A DNA stretch of 64,000 bases from Anaerolinea sp. (GTDB lineage Bacteria; Chloroflexota; Anaerolineae; Anaerolineales; Villigracilaceae): the NCBI GenBank assembly GCA_020723805.1, contig DYID01000004.1, forward strand, positions 1-64,000, given 5' to 3'. Every line of letters begins with the position of its first letter. Position 1 is the first letter of the stretch. The translations under genes and the position numbers were made by a program. Shown here in pieces: positions 34 to 33,961 of the stretch. The notes under the pieces are model-generated. The model was given only the letters and a program-made list of their open reading frames with translations, was not told the origin of the DNA and did not search any database.

Positions 34-2541
34 CAGTTTTTTGGGGTCACTACATTTATTGATTCTGACACAAGACGCTGGTCGAGTGGCTTGCCCGCCA
101 GGGGATTACCGGTCTTAATGCCCTGACGGGCATTTATTGATTCTGACTGCTACATCCAGGCGAAAGCCTTCCCGCTGGAATACGAGTCTTAATGCCCTGA
201 CGGGCATTTATTGATTCTGACTTGTTTCCGGCGTATTTTATTACGCCGGAATTGTTTACGTCTTAATGCCCTGACGGGCATTTATTGATTCTGACGATGG
301 ACAGGAGCCTCTAGATATGTTACAAATGATAGTGTCTTAATGCCCTGACGGGCATTTATTGATTCTGACAATTAGAAGTGTTGGGCTGACCATAAACATC
401 CATGTTATGTCTTAATGCCCTGACGGGCATTTATTGATTCTGACTTAGAAAAAAGACAATGAAAAAGATCGCACTCTCACTGGGTCTTAATGCCCTGACG
501 GGCATTTATTGATTCTGACGAAGACAAGCCATTAGCCCGTTCCGAGGCTTTATATCGGGTCTTAATGCCCTGACGGGCATTTATTGATTCTGACGCAATC
601 CTGAAGCGATGGAAAGTGGAAGGGTTCACGTCAGTCTTAATGCCCTGACGGGCATTTATTGATTCTGACGCACTGGGAGCGGGACACGTTGTTGCAAGCG
701 GCGCGGCAAGTCTTAATGCCCTGACGGGCATTTATTGATTCTGACCAGACAAGACCATGTTGGCATTGTTGAACAACGTTTCGTCTTAATGCCCTGACGG
801 GCATTTATTGATTCTGACAAAACAATGAAAAAGATCGTTTTTGTCGCAGTCACAATCGCGTCTTAATGCCCTGACGGGCATTTATTGATTCTGACGACAA
901 TTTGGGCCCCCGTAGAGACCGAATCTGGAATGTCTTAATGCCCTGACGGGCATTTATTGATTCTGACTCATATTTGCCAGGGGAACTGTACGCCTAGCCC
1001 GTACGGTCTTAATGCCCTGACGGGCATTTATTGATTCTGACGGTTCGAGTAGCCCGATTTCGGACAGAACAGCCAAAACGGTCTTAATGCCCTGACGGGC
1101 ATTTATTGATTCTGACTGGACATCCGTCCGCCCCGGAAAGGACGCAAAAATGGAAGGTCTTAATGCCCTGACGGGCATTTATTGATTCTGACCTTTATCT
1201 GTCCGCTTGGCTAGCCTACCGACCAAATACTAAAGTCTTAATGCCCTGACGGGCATTTATTGATTCTGACCAAAAATCAGCGTAAGCATCACCTTCTGCG
1301 TTCATGGGTCTTAATGCCCTGACGGGCATTTATTGATTCTGACCAAGCACAACCGCTTTATATTCGTACATAAGCAATTAGGTCTTAATGCCCTGACGGG
1401 CATTTATTGATTCTGACAATACTGCATACCGTTGTCTGTGCGCAACGCTTGTACTGGGTCTTAATGCCCTGACGGGCATTTATTGATTCTGACTATCTTT
1501 TCTTGTCAAGGTCTAGCCTCCCCCAAAAAAGTCTTAATGCCCTGACGGGCATTTATTGATTCTGACCCGCCCTCCAGCGAAGCCAACCGACCTGGGCGCG
1601 TGGACAGTCTTAATGCCCTGACGGGCATTTATTGATTCTGACTCCGCGCCGCCTTGAGCCTTGCTCTTCGCACGGTTGGTCTTAATGCCCTGACGGGCAT
1701 TTATTGATTCTGACACGAAAGGAAAAAAACATGTCAACCAGAGTAGAAAGTGTGGGTCTTAATGCCCTGACGGGCATTTATTGATTCTGACCCAATGACC
1801 CCGCATTGCAGTTCATCGTGGACGAGACGTTGAGTCTTAATGCCCTGACGGGCATTTATTGATTCTGACCGTTTTTCCTTTCTGGGCTTGCCGCCCAACT
1901 TTTGTTAGTCTTAATGCCCTGACGGGCATTTATTGATTCTGACCAAGCCAGCGGTCCACCATCTCCTCGTACCGCTTCGCCATATGTCTTAATGCCCTGA
2001 CGGGCATTTATTGATTCTGACTGTAAAGGTGAGGGTGAAGGTCGGGGTCGCCGTCCACGAAGGTCTTAATGCCCTGACGGGCATTTATTGATTCTGACGT
2101 TACAGAGTTGCGCCCGCCTGAGGAAGTTGAAAGGAGTCTTAATGCCCTGACGGGCATTTATTGATTCTGACGAAGTACCAGGACAAGGAAGAGTCCGACA
2201 TTCTGGCGAAAGTCTTAATGCCCTGACGGGCATTTATTGATTCTGACATCCGCCAGTGACGCCATTGAGTTATGATGTCAACGGTCTTAATGCCCTGACG
2301 GGCATTTATTGATTCTGACGTTCCAAGTCGCCTTGAATACCAGTTCCTCAAGATCGGTCTTAATGCCCTGACGGGCATTTATTGATTCTGACGAAATAGG
2401 GAGTTCTATGCACAATATGAGGTAATTGGTCTTAATGCCCTGACGGGCATTTATTGATTCTGACTATAAAAGTGATTGGTCATGATAAAAATCGTAAACT
2501 AATTGGTCTTAATGCCCTGACGGGCATTTATTGATTCTGAC
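34..2541 (-). CRISPR. Type III-A CRISPR array, 33 intact repeats plus one degenerate
   Basis: There are 33 intact 36-nt repeats (first at 112-147, last at 2506-2541) and a decayed one at 34-69, of which only the 17 nt at 53-69 match. Spacers are 36-42 nt. Read on the minus strand the repeat starts GTCAGAATCAAT, contains the hairpin TGCCC-GTCA-GGGCA and ends in ATTAAGAC, which resembles the 8-nt crRNA 5' handle (ATTGAAAC type). This, the decayed repeat at the low-coordinate end and the cas genes on the minus strand all place the leader at 2542 and upward. Cas6 (4711-5559) would cut the repeat hairpins. Intact repeats appear identical by eye. Two spacers (445-483 and 819-859) share a 16-nt core. 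Confidence 0.97.
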
Positions 2542-2734
2542 CCCTGTTTTTCACCGGCACAAAACAGGTATTTTTACCGCCAGAACCGCTGTCATTATAC
2601 CGTACAAATGCCGAATTTTCATCCAAAACATTCGTCCTCTGCCGAATTGACACTCCCAATGAAGGTCCGCGTACCCCCCTCCCCAAAAGGGTCAAAAGCG
2701 GGCGAATCCGGCGGGGGGGTACGCAAACCGCAGT
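2542..2734 (-). promoter_or_regulatory. CRISPR leader with promoter
   Basis: This non-coding stretch lies between cas2 and the first repeat. On the minus strand a perfect TATAAT box sits at 2599-2594, which would start transcription near 2586, about 45 nt before the first repeat. No convincing -35 box is visible. Next to the first repeat is a perfect 8-bp inverted repeat, CCTGTTTT (2543-2550) and AAAACAGG (2561-2568), separated by 10 nt. It could be a leader-anchoring or integration motif for Cas1-Cas2, or a hairpin in the pre-crRNA leader; that role is inferred. Confidence 0.75.
2669..2724. terminator. Inverted repeat after cas2, possible terminator
   Basis: An 11-bp perfect stem is formed by GCGTACCCCCC (2669-2679) and GGGGGGTACGC (2714-2724), with a 34-nt loop. 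It lies just downstream of the cas2 stop codon and before the leader promoter, so it may separate cas operon transcription from the array. No T-run follows it, so a classical intrinsic terminator is not certain. Confidence 0.4.
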
Positions 2735-5562: not shown

Positions 5563-5661
5563 GATTTGCGATTTCTGATTTTCGATTTGCGATTTTCGAT
5601 TGTCAATCCAAAATCTAAAATCCAAAATCTAAAATCCAAAATCTAAAATCTAAAATCTAAA
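5563..5661. repeat. AT-rich palindromic element between cas6 and the Csx15-like gene
   Basis: GATTTGCGATTTTCG units, a GATTGTCAATCC core and at least six AAATCTAAAATCC units give about 100 bp able to form a long hairpin. It supplies the stop codon and last residues (FRF) of the upstream gene and occupies the ribosome-binding region of cas6. Confidence 0.85.
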
Positions 5662-6033
5662 AAGCCTTGCCTCATCACGCACTGCCTGGAGGTTGATGAC
5701 TTCGGCTACCTCAAAGCGCGGCGGGATGGCGCCCTCCACCGGCTTCAGGCGCAAAATGGGCGGGAAGTAGCCCATGCGCCCATGCAGTTCTGCCAGCGTG
5801 AGCGCGGCGATGTAGTTGTAGGAGGGCAGATTGACAATGATGGGCGCGGTCTGCCACTCTTCGGGCGTAAACGTCACCGTCTTGAGAATCTCGCGCAGTT
5901 GCGGCAGGAAGGGCTTCTCTTGCTCGAAGTGAATCGGCAGGGGGATGACCTGCTCCAGCGGATTTTTGGTCAGCGCTTCAATTTGGGCTTTTTGTTCGGG
6001 GGTGAGGGGGTGGGAGAAGTTGAGGAGGATCAT
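5650..6033 (-). CDS. Small CRISPR-associated protein, Csx15-like
   Basis: A 127-aa protein starting MILLNFSHPLTPEQKAQIEA, with a central EEWQTAPIIVNLPSYNYIAA and a conserved-looking LAELHGRMGYFPPILRL segment followed by RFEVAEVINLQAVRDEAR. This pattern matches my recollection of the Csx15 family of small proteins encoded beside type III effectors. Its biochemical role is not visible in the sequence; a function in binding or clearing cOA is possible. It lies between the Can2/Card1-like nuclease and cas6, in the same transcription unit. Upstream is repeat DNA with only a weak GGAAATC Shine-Dalgarno. Confidence 0.75.
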   Translation of the reverse strand: MILLNFSHPLTPEQKAQIEALTKNPLEQVIPLPIHFEQEKPFLPQLREILKTVTFTPEEWQTAPIIVNLPSYNYIAALTLAELHGRMGYFPPILRLKPVEGAIPPRFEVAEVINLQAVRDEARLFRF

Positions 6034-6086
6034 TTGCGATTTCCGATTGTGGATTTTAGATTGGAGATTTTAAATTTGAGGATTGA
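6034..6086. repeat. AT-rich repeat between the Csx15-like and CARF-nuclease genes
   Basis: Degenerate GATTTTAGATTGGAG-type units. They overlap the 3' end of the nuclease gene at 6056-6937, whose last residues (SSNLKSPI) are translated repeat. Confidence 0.7.
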
Positions 6087-6937
6087 AGACCGAGGGTTTC
6101 ATCCAGCGCGGCGCGTAAGCGGGATTGGCTAGGGGCATCCAGCCGCCATCTTCCCGGCGCAGATGCGCGGATGGAGACCAGCACAATTTGGACGCCATAA
6201 GCTTTTGCCAGTTCTTGCAATTGTTCGCCGGGCGTTTTTGCCACAACCCAAATACGGCCAGTGTATGTTCCCAAATATTCTCTGCCTGCAATAGTTGTCA
6301 ATTGATCTAAGCCGTCGCGCTTGCGCTTGTTTGGGCTCAATCCGCTTTTGGCTTCGATGACCGCCGCCTGATTGCCGCGCTGGACAAGGAAGTCAATCTC
6401 GAAAGCAGGGTATTGCAAATTGTGGCGAACATCGTCCGCTTGTGTGCGTAAAAACATAAACAAGGCGGTTTCCTGTTCATTGCTTAAAGGTTTGGACGGC
6501 ACGGATTGCAAGCCGTGTGCCCGCAAGTAATCTTCCGCTGAAATCAAACTCGGCAAGAAATCGGCGGTCTGTTTTATCCCGTTTGCAGTGAAATTCAAAT
6601 GATATAGTTTCGACCGTTTTTTCTCGCTTTCGAGATAAATCACTTCCGCCCCGTGCGAGCGCGCTGATTCGTAGCCTGCCCAAGCCATCGGTTTGGTGCC
6701 GCCGGTCAGGTTGAAGGTCATGCCAGGCTGATAGGCCTGCTCGAATGCAGCACGAATGGATACCAGGTCATAGGGATCGTCCAGCGGGAGTAATTCTGTA
6801 TGCGGCAACAGGGCATGCAGATTTTCCGCCACGCGGCGCGTTTTTTCGGAGTGCGCCAGGATGTGCTGTTTGGGTTTCAGGGCGCGGTCAACCAGAAGGA
6901 CGGGGATGGGCTGTTCACCGATGAGGGAGATTAACAT
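6056..6937 (-). CDS. CARF-PD-(D/E)XK nuclease, Can2/Card1-like (DUF1887)
   Basis: About 293 aa. The N-terminal half is a CARF sensor domain: it begins MLISLIGEQPIPVLLVDRAL and contains the ligand-loop motif NLTGGTKPMAWAGYESAR. The C-terminal half carries a restriction-type nuclease site, FEIDFLVQRGNQAAVIEAKS (Asp about residue 183, Glu-x-Lys about 196-198). Known Can2/Card1 proteins are switched on by cOA and then nick DNA or cut single-stranded nucleic acid; the same is inferred here. It is shorter than Card1 (about 370 aa). The ATG at 6937 is chosen because the upstream extension is repeat DNA. It is co-transcribed with the CARF-HEPN gene upstream. Confidence 0.88.
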   Translation of the reverse strand: MLISLIGEQPIPVLLVDRALKPKQHILAHSEKTRRVAENLHALLPHTELLPLDDPYDLVSIRAAFEQAYQPGMTFNLTGGTKPMAWAGYESARSHGAEVIYLESEKKRSKLYHLNFTANGIKQTADFLPSLISAEDYLRAHGLQSVPSKPLSNEQETALFMFLRTQADDVRHNLQYPAFEIDFLVQRGNQAAVIEAKSGLSPNKRKRDGLDQLTTIAGREYLGTYTGRIWVVAKTPGEQLQELAKAYGVQIVLVSIRASAPGRWRLDAPSQSRLRAALDETLGLQSSNLKSPI

Positions 6938-6976
6938 TGTAGATTGTAGATTTACGATTTTGGATTGGAGATTGGC
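6938..6976. repeat. AT-rich repeat upstream of the CARF-nuclease gene
   Basis: GTAGATTGTAGATTTACGATTTTGG-like units fill most of the 48-nt gap between the two CARF genes and occupy the ribosome-binding region of the downstream gene. Confidence 0.65.
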
Positions 6977-6985
6977 AAGCAAGGG

Positions 6986-8248
6986 TTACAACTCCAATAT
7001 GGGGAAGTGCGGCAGGTCATCTTCGCTGGCGTTTGCAAAATTCAAAACCACGTCACGCAATTTTTGATACGTTTCCGGTTTGACCGGTTCCGTTCCATGC
7101 GCCAGGCGCGATTGGTTACGGGCATACAAAACTTTGTTCAGCTCGACTTCCTGCTCTTGATATTTCTTTCCCAAGTCGTCACCGAGCGCGTGTAATAATT
7201 GATAACTGGCTTTCAAACCCAGTTTCAAGTCGTCTGCGGGGTTTTCAGGGTCAGAATAAAGCCGAACGAAGTCATTTCGCAAACTTTCTGGGATTTGTTC
7301 CGGCTTGACAGCGTTATTTTTGATTTGGTGCGCATTCAGTAGTTGATTTCGCGCCAGGGCTTCGAGCGCGGAATATAAGCGGGCAACTGCATCGTCATAT
7401 TTCTGCGCAACGTCGGCTCGTCTTGCTGCGTTTGCAATCAGGTCGAGAATATCCAATCGTTGCGCTTCCGCCCCTTTCTCGTTGTGCAGGTGCAAAAATT
7501 CAGCGTTTTGCTCCACCACATCGAGCGCCGGGCGCAAGGGGTCGGCGCGTCCAGCAACATACAACTTAAGTTTGCCGAGCGCGGAAAAAATTTTGTTTTG
7601 TGCCGATTTGTACTCAAAGCGGTCCCACAAAGCGTAACCTTCGATGAGTTCCGCCAGCGCGTCATAGACCTTGCGCATATCGGCAGGGACAACAGCGCTC
7701 AAGCGTTTGGCGCGCTCATGCGCGTCGGCAAATCGCCCATGATTGAACAGGAAAGCAATCTCCTGCCGCGCCCGCACCGCCAGTTCAGACCAGGGATTGG
7801 ATTGAAACCATGTCCACTCTTTGCCTTCCAGTACAATGCCAATGCCGCCCCGGTCACGCCCTTGCGGGTCTTTCGAGCCAACGTAAAAATACTGGGATGA
7901 CGTTTCAATTGTCATCAGCACAGCAGCAACCGACATCGGTTTTGTGCCAGCCGTGTATTCAACCGCCAGTTGATTGGACTCCACGCCCCATTTTTTCAAC
8001 ATGCCAGGCAGTTCGCTGGCTAAAGCGCGGTAACACGCCACCAGGTCCTGCGGGCTGGGGGTTTCTATCCAATCGAAATGTTCGGGCTGGTAATTCAGGG
8101 CAGGCAGAATTTTCTCCCGAATGGACGACTTCGTATCGGGCGAAACAAAGAAGCAGATAAAACGCGGCTGCTGTTCGTTTAGCGTATGCACGGCGGCAGA
8201 AATCGCGCCGCCGACATTGACAAGCATGGCTTGGGGTTTTTCGGTCAT
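6986..8248 (-). CDS. CARF-HEPN ribonuclease, TIGR02710/Csm6-like
   Basis: A 420-aa effector. The N-terminal CARF domain has AMLVNVGGAISAAVHTLN and the ligand-loop motif VEYTAGTKPMSVAAVLM. A helical region follows, and near the C-terminus the motif RNQSRLAHG (about residues 373-381) fits the HEPN R-x4-6-H ribonuclease signature. By family, cOA binding would activate degradation of cellular and phage RNA. The ATG at 8248 overlaps the csm5 stop as ATGA and has a GGAG site 7 nt upstream, so it is preferred over the ATG at 8263. This tight coupling to csm5 supports co-expression with the Csm complex. Confidence 0.87.
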   Translation of the reverse strand: MTEKPQAMLVNVGGAISAAVHTLNEQQPRFICFFVSPDTKSSIREKILPALNYQPEHFDWIETPSPQDLVACYRALASELPGMLKKWGVESNQLAVEYTAGTKPMSVAAVLMTIETSSQYFYVGSKDPQGRDRGGIGIVLEGKEWTWFQSNPWSELAVRARQEIAFLFNHGRFADAHERAKRLSAVVPADMRKVYDALAELIEGYALWDRFEYKSAQNKIFSALGKLKLYVAGRADPLRPALDVVEQNAEFLHLHNEKGAEAQRLDILDLIANAARRADVAQKYDDAVARLYSALEALARNQLLNAHQIKNNAVKPEQIPESLRNDFVRLYSDPENPADDLKLGLKASYQLLHALGDDLGKKYQEQEVELNKVLYARNQSRLAHGTEPVKPETYQKLRDVVLNFANASEDDLPHFPILEL

Positions 8249-9795
8249 GACACTCTCCGACATTCAATTTGCCAAACTCTTCCTACTTGTTTTTTGCCAA
8301 TCACTTCGCAAATCACACTTTCGCCTTCTGCATACCGCTTGCTGGTATCGTTGTTCTCGGCGGAAATATGAGCATAGGCGACAGTATCCTCTAATCCAGG
8401 AATGAACAAATCCAAAGCCTTGCCTTCCTGGTTGAAGACTTCGCCTTTGAAGCGGTCGCCGATGTTAGGGATGTCGGTGAATTCGGCAATCAACGGTTTG
8501 GGCTGAGGCTTGGGAGCAGGTTTGGGCGAAGGCGCAACACGGGCGGGAATTTCGCCTGTTGTTACCGTCTCCAAAATTCGTTTTTGCCAGTCAGTTTCCA
8601 TAAAATCAGCGCCTTCCTCTGTCACATTGACCAATACCCATCCTAACGGATAACCTAGCGGCGCGCGTTGGTCTTTATAGGGTAGTCGGCGGCTCATTGG
8701 GAATTCATCGCCGCTTTGGTAATCTTTAGAATGGTGCGCTCCAAGCCTGAAACCGCTAATAATTTCCAGCATGAAATTGTCGTCTTCGCGCAATTGCCCA
8801 TCAAACGTTTTTCCATCCCAACCGGTTCCCCACCCCAATTGCAACAAGAAAGCAGATTCGTTTTCGGCGGCTTGCAGGCTTTGCCAGCGGTGGTAGAGAC
8901 TGACCGCGTTTGAAATCTTGGGTGAGTTTTTCGCCTGATTGGTGTAATACTCAATTTCGGTTTCAATACGTTGGCGGGCATATTGCTGGCAAATTTTCAC
9001 CCACTCGGTTAGACGTTTGGGGTCGCCAAAGTTCAATTTCTTCCATTGTTCGGATTGCGGAGTAGAGCCAAACAAGCGTGTGTCAATTTTGAGAGCGACG
9101 CCTTCCAACAACAGGCTAGCAGGTAGTACCTCGAGACTGGAAATTTTATCCACTCGCTCCATGCTCCAATTCCGATATACGGCCGCGTTGATTAATTGCA
9201 TTCTTTTTGGGTCAATGGGCTGACTGTCTGATACCTGCAAAGCACGCATCAGGTCGTAGTTGGGGCCTTTTCCAGACGGTGCAGAAGGGTAGAAAATATC
9301 TTGCTCGTAGCGGTTGGCAGCCTTTTTCTTATCGAATTTGCGCCTGTCAGCTTCAAATCGCGGCGGAGAAGAAACTTTGTTCAAATCGGGGTAAAGATGT
9401 TTTGTTTTCCACTCCCACCATCCAATCGCGGTGCGGAGCGCGCCTTTCAGGCTGGAACCGGGCAGGTAAGGCTGGTCATAGACGTTTTTAATGAACTCGC
9501 GCACGCGCCCATCCTGTGAAAGCGCCTGGCCGGGGATGTGATAGCGGAAAAGCGCGCTGCCGTCTTTGTATTCCCGGTCATCGGTTATCAGGTCGGCGGG
9601 TTTTGTTCGTGCCAACTGCTCGGCGATTTTAGGGTCGTCAATATTTTGCGCTTCAAGCAAAGCATTTTCATTGAACCGCCAAATCTCGCCATGTTTTTCG
9701 GCAAAATCGTAGCCGCGCAGCATCTCCCGTCCGTTGCCGATGTGCAGGGGGGTAAGGACGGTGATTTTCAGGCGGTAGGTTTTGTAATCGGGCAT
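8245..9795 (-). CDS. csm5: Csm5 with C-terminal OB/S1-like domain
   Basis: Csm5 caps the 3' end of the crRNA in the Csm complex. The 516-aa protein has RAMP features: YRLKITVLTPLHIGNGRE at the N-terminus and PYLPGSSLKGALRTAIGW. After about residue 420 a Pro-rich linker (APSPKPAPKPQPKP) leads to about 75 residues, GDRFKGEVFNQEGKALDLFI then AYAHISAENN and GESVICEVIGKKQVGRVWQI, which read like an S1 or cold-shock OB fold. Csm5 proteins are usually about 350-420 aa, so this tail is an addition. Start has a GGAGG site. Downstream gene overlaps by 4 nt. An RNA-binding role for the tail is inferred. Confidence 0.9.
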   Translation of the reverse strand: MPDYKTYRLKITVLTPLHIGNGREMLRGYDFAEKHGEIWRFNENALLEAQNIDDPKIAEQLARTKPADLITDDREYKDGSALFRYHIPGQALSQDGRVREFIKNVYDQPYLPGSSLKGALRTAIGWWEWKTKHLYPDLNKVSSPPRFEADRRKFDKKKAANRYEQDIFYPSAPSGKGPNYDLMRALQVSDSQPIDPKRMQLINAAVYRNWSMERVDKISSLEVLPASLLLEGVALKIDTRLFGSTPQSEQWKKLNFGDPKRLTEWVKICQQYARQRIETEIEYYTNQAKNSPKISNAVSLYHRWQSLQAAENESAFLLQLGWGTGWDGKTFDGQLREDDNFMLEIISGFRLGAHHSKDYQSGDEFPMSRRLPYKDQRAPLGYPLGWVLVNVTEEGADFMETDWQKRILETVTTGEIPARVAPSPKPAPKPQPKPLIAEFTDIPNIGDRFKGEVFNQEGKALDLFIPGLEDTVAYAHISAENNDTSKRYAEGESVICEVIGKKQVGRVWQIECRRVS

Positions 9796-9825
9796 AAAAG
9801 CCTCCGTATATCCTATAGTAGATTT

Positions 9826-9931
9826 CTCTTGCCCGCTTTCGTTGGACTAAAGTCCCGCCTCATGGCATGAAAGTCGAATGAATTCGACTTTCACTCAGCC
9901 CGCAGGGCTTCCATGAGATGAGCAGGCGGCT
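9826..9931. repeat. Palindromic intergenic element between csm4 and csm5
   Basis: A perfect 11-bp palindrome (GAAAGTCGAAT at 9869-9879, ATTCGACTTTC at 9882-9892, 2-nt loop) is nested inside a longer imperfect inverted repeat made of GGACTAAAGTCCCGCC on the left and GGCGGCTTTAGCCCC on the right. It looks like a REP-type element and fills the only large gap inside the csm gene block. Confidence 0.7.
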
Positions 9932-11053
9932 TTAGCCCCGCTCATGGGGTTTGAGTTTCCAATCCAGCGCCAGCGCAAAACCGGGACGGTAGATAGGATG
10001 AGCAATCGTCTCGCCGCTTTTGGCGTCATATTCGGGGCGCACGTCCGCCGCGCCGCCTTGCGGATTGCCCGCTATCAGGCTTCCTTCCGCCACCAGCCAG
10101 AGACGCTTGCGGCGTTGGGCGGCGGCGTTTTCGGGCGTGCGCAGCCAGCCTTCCACTGCTTCCAGTTTGTAGGCGGAGTTGGCAAGCAGGGCCACTTCAT
10201 CGGCTTTCGGATGCCAGCGGCTGAGCAGGTACGCGGCTGATTGCGGAGCGTTCAGCGGCAGTTCGCCTTTTGGCTCGAAGGTGAAATGTCCATAGCTCGC
10301 CGTGCGCTCGCCGCCCAGACCGGAGTCGCCTAAAGCGGCAAGCAGGGTTGCAAAATCCAGCCGCAAACTGGAAGTTTGCGCTACACCAAACCACAAGCCG
10401 CAGCCCGCGTTGAACAGCACCCGCTCGGACTGGAACAGGTTGGATGCGGAACTGATGCGGTCCACGGTCACGCGCGGGGCGGTTTGGGATGTGAACACCG
10501 TTTGACGCATGACGGCTTCAAGCGGGCGTTCCTTCTTTTGCTCTTTCCCGTTAGATTTGTCCGTGTAGAAGAGAATGCTTTCAGGCAGTTCTTTGATTTC
10601 CGCTTCGGTCAACCACAGAGCGCCGCCTTGCACGGAAAATTTGCACGCCCATTCGTCATCGCTATCCTTTTTGAGTTCGTTATCTAAAAACTCGCCTTTG
10701 CGGGCGCGTTCGATTAACGCTTCGGACAAATAGCGGATTTTCTTGATATTCTTGCCTGCGCCAAACTCTTTGATACGGCTATCTGTGAACAACTCCCGCA
10801 AATCCACCGGCTTGGGGTAAAAGCGCACGCCGCCCGCAAACGGAAAAGCAGACGTGACACGAAATGCAGGCTCGCCGTTTTCGGGCAAAATCTCTTTCAC
10901 ATCCCTGCCCAAATGCCGCCAGGTATCGAGCAGGGCGGCAAAGAGCGTATCGGATGGCACGCTTTCGCGCGACTCTTCCACGCTTTCCACCCCGCCCGCG
11001 CCGATGTGAATCCCGCGCGGAAAGGTGAGATGGTAGTTCGTCAGTTGGGGCAT
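9932..11053 (-). CDS. csm4: Csm4 (Cas5-like subunit)
   Basis: Csm4 binds the 5' handle of the crRNA and contacts Cas10. The 373-aa protein starts MPQLTNYHLTFPRGIHIGAG, then VPSDTLFAALLDTWRHLG, the usual Csm4 N-terminal pattern (SDTLF-AL). It contains TVDRISSASNLFQSERVLF and ends with a second RAMP-like half including GLGGERTASYGHF. The start codon has an AAGGAG site. It lies between csm3 and csm5 in the standard III-A order. No unusual domain is seen. Confidence 0.93.
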   Translation of the reverse strand: MPQLTNYHLTFPRGIHIGAGGVESVEESRESVPSDTLFAALLDTWRHLGRDVKEILPENGEPAFRVTSAFPFAGGVRFYPKPVDLRELFTDSRIKEFGAGKNIKKIRYLSEALIERARKGEFLDNELKKDSDDEWACKFSVQGGALWLTEAEIKELPESILFYTDKSNGKEQKKERPLEAVMRQTVFTSQTAPRVTVDRISSASNLFQSERVLFNAGCGLWFGVAQTSSLRLDFATLLAALGDSGLGGERTASYGHFTFEPKGELPLNAPQSAAYLLSRWHPKADEVALLANSAYKLEAVEGWLRTPENAAAQRRKRLWLVAEGSLIAGNPQGGAADVRPEYDAKSGETIAHPIYRPGFALALDWKLKPHERG

Positions 11054-11070
11054 CGTTGCTCCTTTTCGTG

Positions 11071-11114
11071 GGGCAGGTCTTTAACCTGTCCGCGCAAGTC
11101 AGAGACTTGCGCTA
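11071..11114. repeat. Double hairpin element at the csm3 stop codon
   Basis: Two adjacent palindromes: GGGCAGGTC-TTT-AACCTGTCC (11071-11091) and GCGCAAGTC-AGA-GACTTGCGC (11092-11112). The second runs into the csm3 stop codon (TAG at 11114-11112). It may modulate the csm3/csm4 boundary of the mRNA; the form is of a dispersed REP-like element. Confidence 0.65.
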
Positions 11115-11936
11115 CATGGCGATTTGCTTCTTCAAGCCATCAAAAGCGGCGGCAAAATCAGCCAGGTTCTTGAAGGGCTGCGGGTTGAGCGGTTTGGACG
11201 GCTGAGACGGGTCTTTGCGGAAGGAAACCTGAATGTTGGTAAACGCCACCTTGCCGCTGCCGCGCGAACCAAGCCCGCCGATGTAATCATCTTCTACCAG
11301 TTGCATGGCTTCGAGCAGAATCTTCAACCGCTCCAGGTCTTTCTGCGCCGAGCAGCCTTCGCCCTCGTACAGGCTGAAGACCATTTCCGCTTTGTCGAAA
11401 ATTGCCCCGGCAGGCACGCGCTCCATCTGACGCGGATTGGCGGCGCTGGTGACGCGGTCAATCGAGACTTCGGTCTTGACTTCGGTGTAGGGCAGGTCGG
11501 TTTGGGCGTTTTCCAGTTCTTTCGCGCTCTTTTCGCTCAGGAAGGTATCGCGTACCACCAGACGGGTGGGGGTGGCAAAATCTCGTTCTCCAGGAACGCC
11601 AAATACCTGGCACACATCGCAGGCTGCATATTCTTTGGGTCCTTTTTCTTTGAGTTCTTCGCCTTTGTATTCTGCGCCGCAGGAATGAATATAGCCTTGT
11701 CCAATTCTCTGATTTTGCTTCAAACCTTTGTACTTCTCCAGCAAACTGCGCATCTTACCCTTGAGCGAAGAGCCGGGGATGTAGGGGCGGTTGGTCAGTT
11801 TATCGCGGATGACGGTTTTGTCCACGCCGCCGATTTCCACGCCGGCGTCTGAGCCGCCGATGTGCAAGCCGGTCACTGCCTGGATGTCGAAGGTGATGAA
11901 GACGCGCCCTTTGAGTTCGATTTTTCGTTCAGACAT
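11112..11936 (-). CDS. csm3: Csm3 (Cas7-like backbone, target RNA cleavage)
   Basis: Csm3 forms the crRNA backbone and cuts target RNA at 6-nt steps. The 274-aa protein begins MSERKIELKGRVFITFDIQA, then LHIGGSDAGVEIGGVDKTVI; the Asp of GGVDKTVIRD matches the catalytic Asp of characterised Csm3. PYIPGSSLKGKMRSLLE and CDVCQVFGVPG are further family signatures, and GGLGSRGSGKVAF is the Gly-rich loop. A GGAGGT site precedes the ATG. The intact Asp predicts active target RNA cleavage and hence timed shut-off of Cas10 signalling. Confidence 0.95.
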   Translation of the reverse strand: MSERKIELKGRVFITFDIQAVTGLHIGGSDAGVEIGGVDKTVIRDKLTNRPYIPGSSLKGKMRSLLEKYKGLKQNQRIGQGYIHSCGAEYKGEELKEKGPKEYAACDVCQVFGVPGERDFATPTRLVVRDTFLSEKSAKELENAQTDLPYTEVKTEVSIDRVTSAANPRQMERVPAGAIFDKAEMVFSLYEGEGCSAQKDLERLKILLEAMQLVEDDYIGGLGSRGSGKVAFTNIQVSFRKDPSQPSKPLNPQPFKNLADFAAAFDGLKKQIAM

Positions 11937-11954
11937 GGGAGACCTCCATGAGAT

Positions 11955-12075
11955 TTGGTGATTTTAGATTGACGATTTTAGATTGCAGATTGGCGTACCG
12001 TCCACGAATAGGTCACGAATACGCGAAAGCGATACGATTCGTGTATTCGCGAAAGAATTCGTGGATAGTTTTCGC
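11955..12075. repeat. Repeat cluster between csm2 and csm3
   Basis: AT-rich GATTTTAGATTGACG units at 11955-11995 are followed by an imperfect palindrome built from CCACGAAT, CACGAATACGCGAAAG, ATTCGTGTATTCGCG and ATTCGTGG blocks. The second part is a different repeat family from the first. Nothing coding is seen. Confidence 0.6.
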
Positions 12076-12081
12076 CAAAGG

Positions 12082-12615
12082 TCACTTACCGCCATACGCG
12101 CGGTGATAGGCAAGGATGGATTCAAAAAAGTTAACGAATCGCTCGAAACGCTCCATGCGTTTTTGTTGCTCACCATCTAAAACAAGATTGATGGCAGGCT
12201 CGAACACAGACGCTAAACTCTTTACTCCATCGCCTTCTTTCTTGGCTCGGTAAGCCATTTTAGGTATCAAGAGTCGTAGTTTGTTCCAGACTTTTGTTTC
12301 ACTGGCTGTGCCTTGCAACTGGCTGATTTTGAGTTTGGCTTCGATTTGTCGCACTTCACCGAAAATGGCTCGAATTTGGGATGTAGACAAGCCGCGATAG
12401 ACCAAAATTGCGCCCAACTTGTCACCCCATTCGACGGTCAATTTGGCGCTTCTTTCTTCCTGTTCTTGGTTTGCAGGTAAAAGAATTTGCTTTAGCGCGG
12501 CTTCCTCAAAGGAGATAGGCGCCTGAGTTTGCAATCCCCATTTTTGGAAGTATCTTTGCCAATCTTCTTGTGCCTTGCCTTTTACATCAGAAAAACGGAA
12601 AGTAACGAGACTCAT
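12082..12615 (-). CDS. csm2: Csm2 (small subunit, Cas11-like)
   Basis: Csm2 forms the inner filament of the III-A complex and contacts target RNA. The 177-aa alpha-helical protein contains LSTSQIRAIFGEVRQIEAKL, the recognisable Csm2 signature, and ends with FERFVNFFESILAYHRAYGG. It is longer than typical Csm2 (about 120-150 aa), mostly at the N-terminus. An AAGGAGG site lies 8 nt before the ATG. Its presence, together with csm1, csm3, csm4 and csm5, defines the locus as subtype III-A. Confidence 0.92.
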   Translation of the reverse strand: MSLVTFRFSDVKGKAQEDWQRYFQKWGLQTQAPISFEEAALKQILLPANQEQEERSAKLTVEWGDKLGAILVYRGLSTSQIRAIFGEVRQIEAKLKISQLQGTASETKVWNKLRLLIPKMAYRAKKEGDGVKSLASVFEPAINLVLDGEQQKRMERFERFVNFFESILAYHRAYGGK

Positions 12616-15348: not shown

Positions 15349-15534
15349 TCGCAAATCGTCAATCACAAATCAAAAATCGCAAATCTCCCGGTTTCCCCCT
15401 TTCTCCCCCTGTACCGAGATGGCGGCAGTGTAGTGGAAAATTGCCATCCTGTCATGCGGGAAAACCCGTATCTTTGATTGCAGATTGCAGATTGTGGATT
15501 ATAGATTGCAATCATCAATCTCCAATCATCAATC
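15349..15534. repeat. AT-rich repeat clusters between cas10 and the CARF-LuxR gene
   Basis: Two clusters, at about 15349-15386 (GCAAATCGTCAATCACAAATC units) and 15474-15534 (TGCAGATTGTGGATTATAG and CAATCATCAATCTCC units), separated by unique sequence. The rest of the 246-nt gap shows no gene. The right cluster abuts the stop codon of the CARF-LuxR gene at 15535. Confidence 0.7.
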
Positions 15535-16383
15535 TCACCTGCTCCAGTGATAGAAAGGCGCCAGCAGGCGGACCAACTGCGCCTGATTCACATCGGGCAA
15601 ATCCCAGTGTTCGGCGGCTTTGCGGTAGACATTGCGCAAGTGCGTTTCTACCGTGCGCGGCGAGAGCAAGAGGCGTTCGGCAATTTCGGCTTGGGTTAAA
15701 CCATCGCGCCCCAGCAGGTCCAACACATCGCGTTCGGCGGCGCTAACTTTGGTCAGCAGAAAGATGCGCGCGGCATCCCACTGTTCGCGCAGACGCAAAT
15801 GCTCAAGCCGCCGCGCCGCTTCAAAGGGATCAGTCACATCGCGCAGGGCATCGAACACGGGAGAAAGCCGCCCCCAGGGGATGATCGGAATCGGGATCAA
15901 CCGCGCCCATTCCCCAGGTCCGGCATGAAGCGCGCCGGAAGCCTCCAGCGCCGGGTGGGAGGCAAGATGCCACAGCCGATCCTCATCGTCGAAGAGCATT
16001 TGCGCGATCGCCATGCCGGCGACGGTCAACGTGCGCCTGCCGCCGGCAATCATCATGTGAACTTTCTTTTCATCCAGTTTTGCCGCCCTTACCTGGGCAT
16101 ACACGGTACGAAATGCAATCTGTACTTCCTGCGGCGAGATGATGTCTGCCAGCGCGTTACCCTCATCCTGCAATTCAACCGCGTGGCATTGAACGTTCGG
16201 ATGGGAACGGGGAAGATCTGCCAGGATTTTCTCGATGGCAATTTGGGTTTCGGGGCGGGCTTTCGAGGCGTGGATCACAATAAGCGTGGACGGACTTTCC
16301 CGCATTTCATGCAGACAGTCCAGCGCCAAGGTGGCAAGCTGCGGTTTACTCCCCAGTGTGACGATGAGAATGCTTTGATTCAT
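15535..16383 (-). CDS. CARF/ring-nuclease-like domain fused to LuxR-type HTH
   Basis: A 282-aa protein. The N-terminal part begins SILIVTLGSKPQLATLALDC and later has MMIAGGRRTLTVAGMAIAQM followed by DEDRLWHLAS, the pattern of the NE0113/TIGR02584 CARF family that includes ring nucleases. Residues about 218-265 (SAAERDVLDLLGRDGLTQAE, IAERLLLSPRTVETHLRNVY) are a clear LuxR/GerE DNA-binding domain. The likely role is transcription control, possibly of this operon, in response to cOA; whether it also degrades cOA is unknown. It is the first gene of the cas operon, with a GGAG site and its own promoter. It differs from Csa3, whose HTH is winged. Confidence 0.85.
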   Translation of the reverse strand: MNQSILIVTLGSKPQLATLALDCLHEMRESPSTLIVIHASKARPETQIAIEKILADLPRSHPNVQCHAVELQDEGNALADIISPQEVQIAFRTVYAQVRAAKLDEKKVHMMIAGGRRTLTVAGMAIAQMLFDDEDRLWHLASHPALEASGALHAGPGEWARLIPIPIIPWGRLSPVFDALRDVTDPFEAARRLEHLRLREQWDAARIFLLTKVSAAERDVLDLLGRDGLTQAEIAERLLLSPRTVETHLRNVYRKAAEHWDLPDVNQAQLVRLLAPFYHWSR

Positions 16384-16403
16384 GAGTCTCCGCGCAGAAG
16401 CGG

Positions 16404-16432
16404 ATTATAAACTTGCCTTGTACCGTTGTGAT
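16404..16432 (-). promoter_or_regulatory. Candidate cas operon promoter
   Basis: On the minus strand a perfect TATAAT box (16409-16404) lies 17 nt downstream of ATCACA (4/6 match to TTGACA). Transcription would start near 16397, leaving a 14-nt leader that carries the GGAGACTC site of the CARF-LuxR gene. A second weaker candidate is TTGACA (16538-16533) with TTACTT (16515-16510), also 17 nt apart. No operator is obvious. Confidence 0.5.
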
Positions 16433-16577
16433 TGAGCCTGACAAAACCGCAAATTCCCTGACCGATATGAGCACCAGACGCTGTCGGAAACAATATTGTG
16501 ACGCAGCGGAAGTAAGCGGCGCGCCCTAACCTTGTCAACGTGGGCGGGATGTCCGCAAGAAACAAAAACGGCGGCTG

Positions 16578-16616
16578 AAAATAACAAGACCGGCTCATGA
16601 CCGGTCTTGTTATTTT
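16578..16616. terminator. Bidirectional intrinsic terminator between the cas operon and hutH
   Basis: A perfect 16-bp stem, AAAATAACAAGACCGG (16578-16593) and CCGGTCTTGTTATTTT (16601-16616), with a 7-nt loop. A/T ends on both sides suit both directions. It ends hutH transcription, which abuts it at 16617. Confidence 0.88.
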
Positions 16617-33660: not shown

Positions 33661-33961
33661 ACAAAAACCTCCCGCCCGCAAATGGGACGGGAGGGAGAGA
33701 GTTCCCGCGGTACCACCCAAATTAGCCTGTGTAGGCTCACTCAGTGCTGACCATCATCAGCCTCCCCTGTAACGCTGGGACTGCGGTTCATACTACACGG
33801 TAGAGCGTGATAAATCCTGCGCTACGTTCACATGAACGGCTCGAGAGGGAACTTCGGCTGGTTTCGGTCGAATGGGACTTTCAGCGCATTCATCCCATCT
33901 CTCTGGCGGCTTCCGCCAGCCTACTTTCCTCTGTCAATGCTTTTTATGGGGTCGCCTGTTA
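33661..33961 (-). promoter_or_regulatory. T-box leader (Phe specifier) of pheS-pheT
   Basis: On the minus strand the T-box sequence TTGGGTGGTACCGCGGGAAC occupies 33720-33701. It is followed by an intrinsic terminator (33694-33668: GGGACGGGAGG with CCTCCCGCCC type stem, then T-rich 33667-33661). Upstream, stem I contains AGAGAGATGGG and a specifier loop where TTC (33851-33849) sits between the helices GGCTGG/CCAGCC and GAGG/CCTC. TTC is a Phe codon, matching the regulated genes. Uncharged tRNA-Phe should stabilise the antiterminator and allow pheS and pheT to be read. Confidence 0.93.

Follow-up and report, generated by a model that had tools for sequence, protein, structure and literature searches.

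The question raised by this locus is whether the gene at the head of a type III-A CRISPR cluster could couple the signalling of Cas10 by cyclic oligoadenylate (cOA) to transcription. The gene lies in the window, i.e. the whole 64,000-nucleotide stretch of Anaerolinea sp. DNA that was analysed. An earlier note, made from the sequence alone, had read it as a CARF domain fused to a LuxR-type DNA-binding domain that heads the operon, and had proposed a cOA-responsive switch. The gene, called the regulator here, and its neighbours are as follows.

15535..16383, minus strand: regulator gene, predicted CARF (NE0113/Crn1-like)-LuxR/GerE HTH protein; single open frame, 282 aa
12640..15288, minus strand: cas10/csm1 with the HD and GGDD motifs kept (profile matches, motif reading)
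8245..12615, minus strand: csm2, csm3, csm4 and csm5 (profile matches)
6986..8263, minus strand: CARF-HEPN effector gene of the TIGR02710 family (profile matches)
6056..6982, minus strand: CARF-PD-(D/E)XK effector gene, Card1/Can2-like
5650..6033, minus strand: csx15, of a cOA sponge or ring nuclease family (function from PMC13148439)
2735..5625, minus strand: cas6, cas1 and cas2
53..2600, end approximate: CRISPR array with the 36-nt repeat GTCTTAATGCCCTGACGGGCATTTATTGATTCTGAC (read on the plus strand)

In the 3' direction from the regulator, the genes follow on the same strand in the order csm1 to csm5, CARF-HEPN, CARF-PD-(D/E)XK, csx15, cas6, cas1 and cas2, ending in the array; the gap between regulator and csm1 is 246 nt. 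With the HD and GGDD motifs present, the Cas10 of the locus should in principle be able to make cOA. Periodic repeats of 7/14 nt (GATTTGCGATTTTAGATTTGCG-like) were seen at several junctions of the cas cluster between 3015 and 15511, including the regulator-csm1 gap. Csm5 (8245-9795) has 516 aa, and its part beyond approximately residue 393 resembles, by eye, an S1/OB-type extension; the match in locus L062 spans all 516 residues, and the csm5 matches in the other loci end by residue 394. Elsewhere in the window, a T-box leader was found at 33680-33946 on the minus strand (Rfam RF00230, 107.9 bits).

Domains and predicted ligand pocket of the regulator

The regulator consists of a CARF part (approximately residues 1-170), a linker helix (186-211) and a DNA-binding part of four helices (215-280). 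The Pfam profile PF09623 (Cas_NE0113) matched residues 13-156 (E 1.7e-23, 83.9 bits, cut-off 23) and PF00196 (GerE) matched residues 214-255 (E 5e-9, 36.1 bits, cut-off 23.5). The earlier reading of an NE0113-like N-terminus and a LuxR HTH in one frame was thereby borne out, and the motifs quoted for it (VTLGSKPQLATLALDC, IAGGRRTLTVAG and DRLWHLA) are all present. The HTH stretch gave a weaker match above cut-off to sigma-70 region 4 (30.5 bits against 25.7) and matched HTH_24, a winged-HTH model, exactly at its cut-off of 21.9 bits. The NCBIfam Csx14 profile TIGR03642 (54.1 bits) and TIGR02584 (25.9 bits) both stayed under cut-off, as did the Csa3 CARF profiles PF22662 (13.6 bits against 27) and TIGR01884 (24.2 against 60.2).

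An AlphaFold2 model built from 15 sequences (mean pLDDT 85.2) revealed a Rossmann domain, the linker helix and the four helices. Compared with the PDB, the modelled CARF domain matched the ring nuclease Sso2081 with Z 16.0 (rmsd 1.9 over 145 residues), Cad1-CARF with Z 17.4 and Csa3 with Z 11.9; these fold matches scarcely reach the DNA-binding part. The assignment of the N-terminus as a CARF domain is thus supported by the predicted fold, and the structural match on which the earlier note had staked its proposal was found. The model has no strand past residue 165 and therefore no wing, so a winged HTH was not found in it. GerE was the best DNA-binding match in Pfam, which supports a LuxR/GerE-type HTH at the C-terminus. 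Within the close subfamily, the recognition helix residues S241, R243, T244, V245, E246, L249 and R250 were invariant in 12/12 sequences.

The CARF pocket was compared with solved structures using a profile from 19 diverse members of the regulator family. Sso2081 was the top solved structure (E 7.9e-11), and LGSKPQ and GGRRT of the regulator aligned with its LGTSPG and GGRKS. According to PMC10018336, motif I of Sso2081 (Gly9-Thr10-Ser11) matters for catalysis and the arginine of motif II (Gly104-Arg105-Lys106) for binding, and Can2 and Card1, which are described there as being without GTS, do not cleave cA4. The position equivalent to Ser11 was K in seven, Q in seven and E in five of the 19 regulators, and serine in none. 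Motif II read GR[RK] in all 19, with an invariant Arg followed by R (13) or K (6). Since GR[RK] is kept and Ser11 is replaced, we predict that the regulator binds cOA but leaves it intact. Because the motif-I serine is missing from every member, ring-nuclease activity is unlikely, which speaks against the earlier suggestion that the CARF part might cleave cOA and make the switch self-limiting. By analogy, the most likely ligand is cA4, since the neighbouring Card1-like effector and Csx15 belong to families that use it (PMC9704534 and PMC13148439, respectively).

Distribution of the CARF-LuxR fusion

A survey of the two-domain architecture across genomes, as the earlier note had proposed, found the fusion to be stable: PF09623 and GerE both matched at E<=0.01 in 19/19 members of the diverse alignment, and the fusion recurs in Rhodothermus marinus. 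Close relatives of the regulator (E below 1e-70) were present in 13 of the 152 genomes of its taxonomic family, with two copies in genome G126, one of them split over two frames. More distant relatives were found in five further genomes (E 1e-17 to 1e-23; one partial) and a 39-residue remnant in G023; the remaining rows were HTH-only matches. The PADLOC profile PDLC01851, 'CARF3--CARF', covered residues 3-278 of the regulator (E 8.2e-80). At E<=1e-10, it matched in 88/400 genomes of the phylum, and many of these matches are ordinary LuxR proteins hit by its C-terminal part, so the profile already contains the LuxR domain. The CARF-LuxR architecture is accordingly already inside a published profile, labelled only 'CARF3--CARF'.

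Gene neighbourhoods were counted at 60 CARF-HTH places drawn from the family and phylum surveys, a set that leaves aside the close subfamily (G000, G015, G151) and, except for G043, CARF-only and HTH-only rows. With Cas10 rows below the Pfam cut-off mostly excluded, a Cas10 palm domain lay within 10 kb of 39/60 places and downstream on the same strand in 34/60; 16 places had no Cas10 palm on the contig, and five had one only farther than 10 kb away. A GTDB contig scan with the family alignment yielded 17 loci, in ten of which csm1 follows directly downstream of the regulator on the same strand. Two of these ten come from one genome, L074 beginning inside the regulator and L075 having it in two frames. 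In the other seven, the contig ends within approximately 260 nt (L063, L067, L068, L070) or the gene is a fragment (L073, L077, L078). The remnants at L077:528-2289 (91 residues) and L078:3464-3574 (37 residues) are without a match to the csm genes of the window in the sequence available around them. In L077, on a contig labelled Candidatus Falkowbacteria, the remnant leads into irregularly spaced repeats that share ATGCCCGTCAGGGCATTAAGAC with the CRISPR of the window, a pattern suggestive of a lost operon between regulator and array.

Outside the phylum, a homologue with 34% identity was found on two Rhodothermus marinus plasmids, where its gene stands directly ahead of csm1-csm5. It is annotated as 'CRISPR-associated ring nuclease'. 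In the copy on plasmid pRMAR01 (L137, RMAR_RS14160), motif I reads LGEQPQ, and by its sequence this protein is probably misnamed; proteins annotated as ring nucleases may thus include transcription factors without the motif-I serine. The plasmid collection yielded no matches beyond these two, whether P0001 or a distant member served as query. Two scans of viral contigs gave no relative, and 50,697 phage records gave no match at E<=1e-3. Spread by phages or plasmids was therefore rejected, with plasmid matches in R. marinus only.

A candidate operator at the putative csm promoter

Four further elements belong to the regulator and csm transcripts.

16404..16432, minus strand: promoter-like site of the regulator gene, sigma-70-like, ATCACA-N17-TATAAT (consensus match only)
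15457..15468, minus strand: candidate operator; the inverted repeat, CGGGTTTTCCCG, has its centre at -42.5 relative to the inferred csm promoter
15427..15455, minus strand: putative csm promoter, ATGACA (15455-15450), 17 nt, TACACT (15432-15427) (conserved layout)
15386..15419, minus strand: possible leader hairpin, approximately +2 to +35 (arm-exchange test)

The start of csm transcription was placed near 15420, 7 nt past the -10 box, and the -42.5 centre rests on this start. In LuxR systems, -42.5 is the classical centre of the lux box (PMC7585371). The gaps between regulator and csm1 share a layout of inverted repeat, ATGACA (or ATGACG, ATGGCA), exactly 17 nt and TANNNT, which was observed in 15 of the 22 scanned loci, plus L141. 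Its carriers are all 13 close-subfamily loci with enough sequence (the window, L062-L066, L069-L072 and L074-L076) and two more distant ones, L036 (44% identity) and L033 (39%). In L067 and L068, the contigs end inside the layout and give partial matches, and L073 is a fragment. The layout is absent from the distant members L019 (ahead of csm1), L034 and L035. L032, with a next gene that is Cmr-like by eye, has a looser version that was not called by the model. In 4/15 loci (L064, L065, L069, L033), the regulator gene extends at its 3' end into the repeat.

With this layout conserved at csm1, the regulator is probably transcribed from a promoter of its own and probably acts, in the manner of LuxR, on a csm operon with a separate promoter. 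Sigma-70-like consensus sites such as that at 16432-16404 occurred three times in the scanned stretch against a mean of 1.0 in shuffles, and TATAAT-like boxes were seen by eye near the start codon upstream of several relatives. The regulator is the first gene of the cluster, as the earlier note had it, but probably not of the csm transcript, given its own promoter-like site (16432-16404) and the second, conserved one in the csm1 gap. The link to transcription of the cas operon gained a conserved candidate operator, at the csm promoter and not upstream of the regulator gene. The upstream target that had been proposed, 16384-16600, contained no match to the site model, and the sole match at E<=0.5 in the genome of the window was 15418-15477, downstream of the gene.

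The dyad reads GGG-N4-CCC in 8/13 aligned sites and is imperfect in 5/13; in other sites the outer arms pair instead, e.g. GCGT/ACGC in L074. Arm pairing stood modestly above column shuffles (20/500 as good for cells paired, 13/500 for the covariation score, 115/500 for pairs changed on both sides). With 0-2 mismatches to an 18-nt pattern, the operator is the sole place in the 3.69 Mb genome of the window. Allowing three mismatches gave eight further places against four in a reversed control, and a wider regulon in this genome was therefore rejected as noise.

Leave-one-out weight matrices placed their best match on the true site in 13/13 gaps, with 0/1000 shuffles as good in each; the shuffle preserves dinucleotides unless its walk fails, and the test is less independent in that near relatives remain in the training set. 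A model built from the sequences of the 13 sites alone was applied to the 152 family genomes at E<1e-3. It matched 11 of the 13 regulator genomes, the contigs of the other two (G056, G072) ending within approximately 40 nt of the gene, and 1 of the 139 others (G073), in which the contig begins at the site and csm1 lies approximately 80 nt on. Strong sites occurred once per genome, except in G126. The csm1 gene was present in 16/152 genomes at E<=1e-20. Five of these have no relative of the regulator in the available sequence upstream of csm1, and no site was found there in any of the five (0/5; G001, with just 270 nt available to the scan, G006, G021, G042 and G074), nor in G061, the source of L019, where a distant CARF-HTH gene stands ahead of csm1.

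Since most regulator loci used for co-occurrence also served to train the model, the sites outside training weigh most. These are G348:C5 (regulator 36% identity, E 4.4e-8), G129, G073, a site at cas1 of G126, and one at the second csm operon of G126, which is near-identical to a training site. In G126, cas1 is directly preceded by an operator-promoter copy (L117, G126:C3:11912-11962, E 3.5e-4), which suggests that the same regulator controls adaptation genes. A second operator-like site, L153 (G239:C8:66081-66126, E 4.7e-6), was seen ahead of a small predicted membrane protein in G239, a genome that also has a CARF-LuxR gene.

At E<=0.01, the model matched 18 places in 396 genomes of the class, seven of them at csm1-linked CARF-LuxR loci that span four taxonomic families (f1, f2, f4, f105). 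Four of the other 11 (L143, L144, L145, L147; E 1e-4 to 4e-3) lie directly behind another LuxR-HTH match and have a similar repeat, -35 box and 17-nt spacing. By eye, the gene preceding L143, L144 and L147 encodes a non-CARF LuxR protein with an RTVExH/KTVExH recognition-helix pattern; for L145, the HTH match alone was seen. The L147 site overlaps the gene end, like four training sites, a minor confound. Sites behind other LuxR genes are a hint that the candidate operator is read by a LuxR HTH. The model found no site at 30 more distant Chloroflexota CARF-HTH loci nor at the two R. marinus loci, and the operator claim is therefore limited to the csm1-linked clade.

Downstream of the promoter, the csm mRNA may begin with a hairpin. 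In the window, its stem is TCTCGGT/ACCGGGA and its loop contains AGGGGGA and GGGGGAAA. A hairpin was observed in 8/14 leaders (window, L062, L064, L066, L069, L071, L076, L118), with stems of 6 to 15 pairs that vary widely in sequence but keep their pairing, and G-rich loops of 20-26 nt. Arms from the same leader paired better than arms swapped between loci (0/2000 permutations as good), both for 11 leaders picked after reading the gaps and for all 14, which include three without the hairpin. Of the tests made, only this exchange of arms supports the stem; MAFFT aligned the stems poorly and single folds were mostly unexceptional. Ten leaders folded against their own shuffles gave z from -2.27 to +1.37, just one being clearly better, and the leader of the window folded no better than its shuffles (z 1.20). 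Searching the leader against Rfam gave none at the gathering score and four matches at E<=5, all below gathering. Possibly the hairpin is a new cis-RNA element. CsrA was rejected as a partner of the GGA-rich loop, as no CsrA was found in the genome.

Proposed role of the regulator and comparison with known systems

A sensor-HTH protein that adjoins a conserved, likely site probably turns the neighbouring CRISPR genes up or down upon alarm. We consider it somewhat better than an even bet that the protein serves its own type III-A locus as a dedicated transcription factor that senses cOA and acts as a class-II activator of the csm operon. The two domains, the conserved layout of operator and promoter and the co-occurrence of this layout with the regulator are what we observed; binding at the candidate site, activation and gating by cOA are what we infer. 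Cas10 would make cOA, most likely cA4, which would bind the CARF pocket of Crn1/Sso2081-like build from which the GTS motif is missing. On the weak sigma-70 promoter that immediately precedes csm1, a dimer of the LuxR-type HTH would occupy the inverted repeat at approximately -42.5 and recruit polymerase, thereby activating the csm operon as a class-II factor and, in a single genome, cas1-cas2 as well. Binding of cOA would alter this action, and we favour activation, in which Cas10 signalling raises csm expression in a feed-forward manner. DNA binding by Csa3, including Csa3a, was reported to be cA4-independent in vitro (PMC8699464, PMC8844856), so gating by cOA is not assured. More tentatively, and with a little less than even confidence, we propose a closed circuit from the Cas10 messenger through the CARF-LuxR activator to csm via the -42.5 operator, and in some genomes to cas1-cas2. 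If true, detection of an invader would step up interference as well as memory formation. Within one bacterial class, the operator is found alongside the regulator and a weak promoter in four taxonomic families.

The ligand could also act with the opposite sign, the protein being an activator when ligand-free that is switched off by cOA, a negative-feedback brake that would stop csm synthesis after the alarm. Such a brake, which we regard as rather unlikely, has the same anatomy and the same operator and differs from the cOA-stimulated activator in the sign of the ligand effect alone, which the sequence does not decide; the probabilities we attach to the two overlap. In Csa3, cA4 rearranges the wHTH domains in a way that was considered to be possibly at odds with DNA binding (PMC8844856), in line with a brake, whereas Csa3b bound promoters better with a cOA analogue (PMC7480081). 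If the protein instead repressed the csm operon until released by cOA, the biological outcome would be the same, and since the operator touches the -35 box, its occupancy could block polymerase. Yet the -42.5 centre and the off-consensus -35 and -10 boxes fit LuxR-type activation, and the csm1 at L128, which is without the regulator, has a perfect TTGACA (TTGACA-N17-TAAACT), a single case and not a test; we hold repression to be improbable.

Other readings take the operator or the HTH away from the regulator. The inverted repeat might serve another host LuxR-type regulator, as the similar sites behind other LuxR-type genes would allow, or form a leader or terminator structure, and a scan rates it terminator-like on the opposite strand. 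On the csm strand, however, no T run follows the repeat, and within the taxonomic family the strong sites track the CARF-LuxR regulator, which makes these readings unlikely. Finally, the annotation of the R. marinus homologue would make the protein a Crn1/Csx14-type ring nuclease whose HTH is vestigial or structural, and Sso2081-type structures do come first by profile and among the best by fold. With the motif-I serine missing throughout, the recognition helix near-invariant in the close subfamily and the operator conserved, we judge this very improbable.

The cOA-sensing activator that we favour resembles Csa3 of the Sulfolobales (Csa3a/Csa3b), in which a CARF sensor with a C-terminal DNA-binding HTH is linked to cas transcription. 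Csa3a was reported without ring nuclease activity, as predicted for the regulator, and Csa3b activates cmr genes and binds adaptation promoters (PMC8699464, PMC8844856, PMC7480081). In contrast to the winged HTH of Csa3, which is archaeal and linked to type I systems, the regulator has a LuxR/GerE HTH and is bacterial, encoded at a type III-A locus whose promoter is sigma-70-like, and its CARF domain is closer to Sso2081 and Cad1 (Z 16-17) than to Csa3 (Z 11.9). With Crn1/Csx14/Cas_NE0113 (PADLOC CARF3), it shares the CARF family by PF09623 and fold, but it lacks the motif-I serine and has the added LuxR HTH. One published ring-nuclease survey limited candidates to 250 aa (PMC12409355), so that the 282-aa regulator would be dropped. 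LuxR/NarL-FixJ (GerE) activators share its HTH family and recognise an imperfect inverted repeat centred at -42.5 (PMC7585371), the position that the inferred csm start would give here; their sensor is an acyl-homoserine-lactone or receiver domain instead of CARF.

CalpL-CalpT-CalpS and RtcR also couple a cOA/CARF sensor to transcription (PMC11229360, PMC9650030). Unlike the regulator, Calp works through an anti-sigma factor that is cleaved and a sigma factor that is set free (PMC11229360), and RtcR acts with sigma-54 and an AAA+ domain (PMC4012209). Regulation of transcription by NE0113-family proteins was already predicted in a 2014 survey (PMC4012209), and in a 2025 classification the effectors activated by cOA include transcriptional regulators (PMC12669027). 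Among the papers listed from a literature collection with few subscription titles and without the 2020 CARF classification by Makarova et al., none was found to describe a CARF-LuxR protein or an operator for it. CARF-HTH regulators as such are already known from Csa3, and what is new here is the putative target site. With regulator, candidate operator and promoter conserved within 1 kb, alarm control of the protein's own genes, and the direction of that control, can be tested simply.
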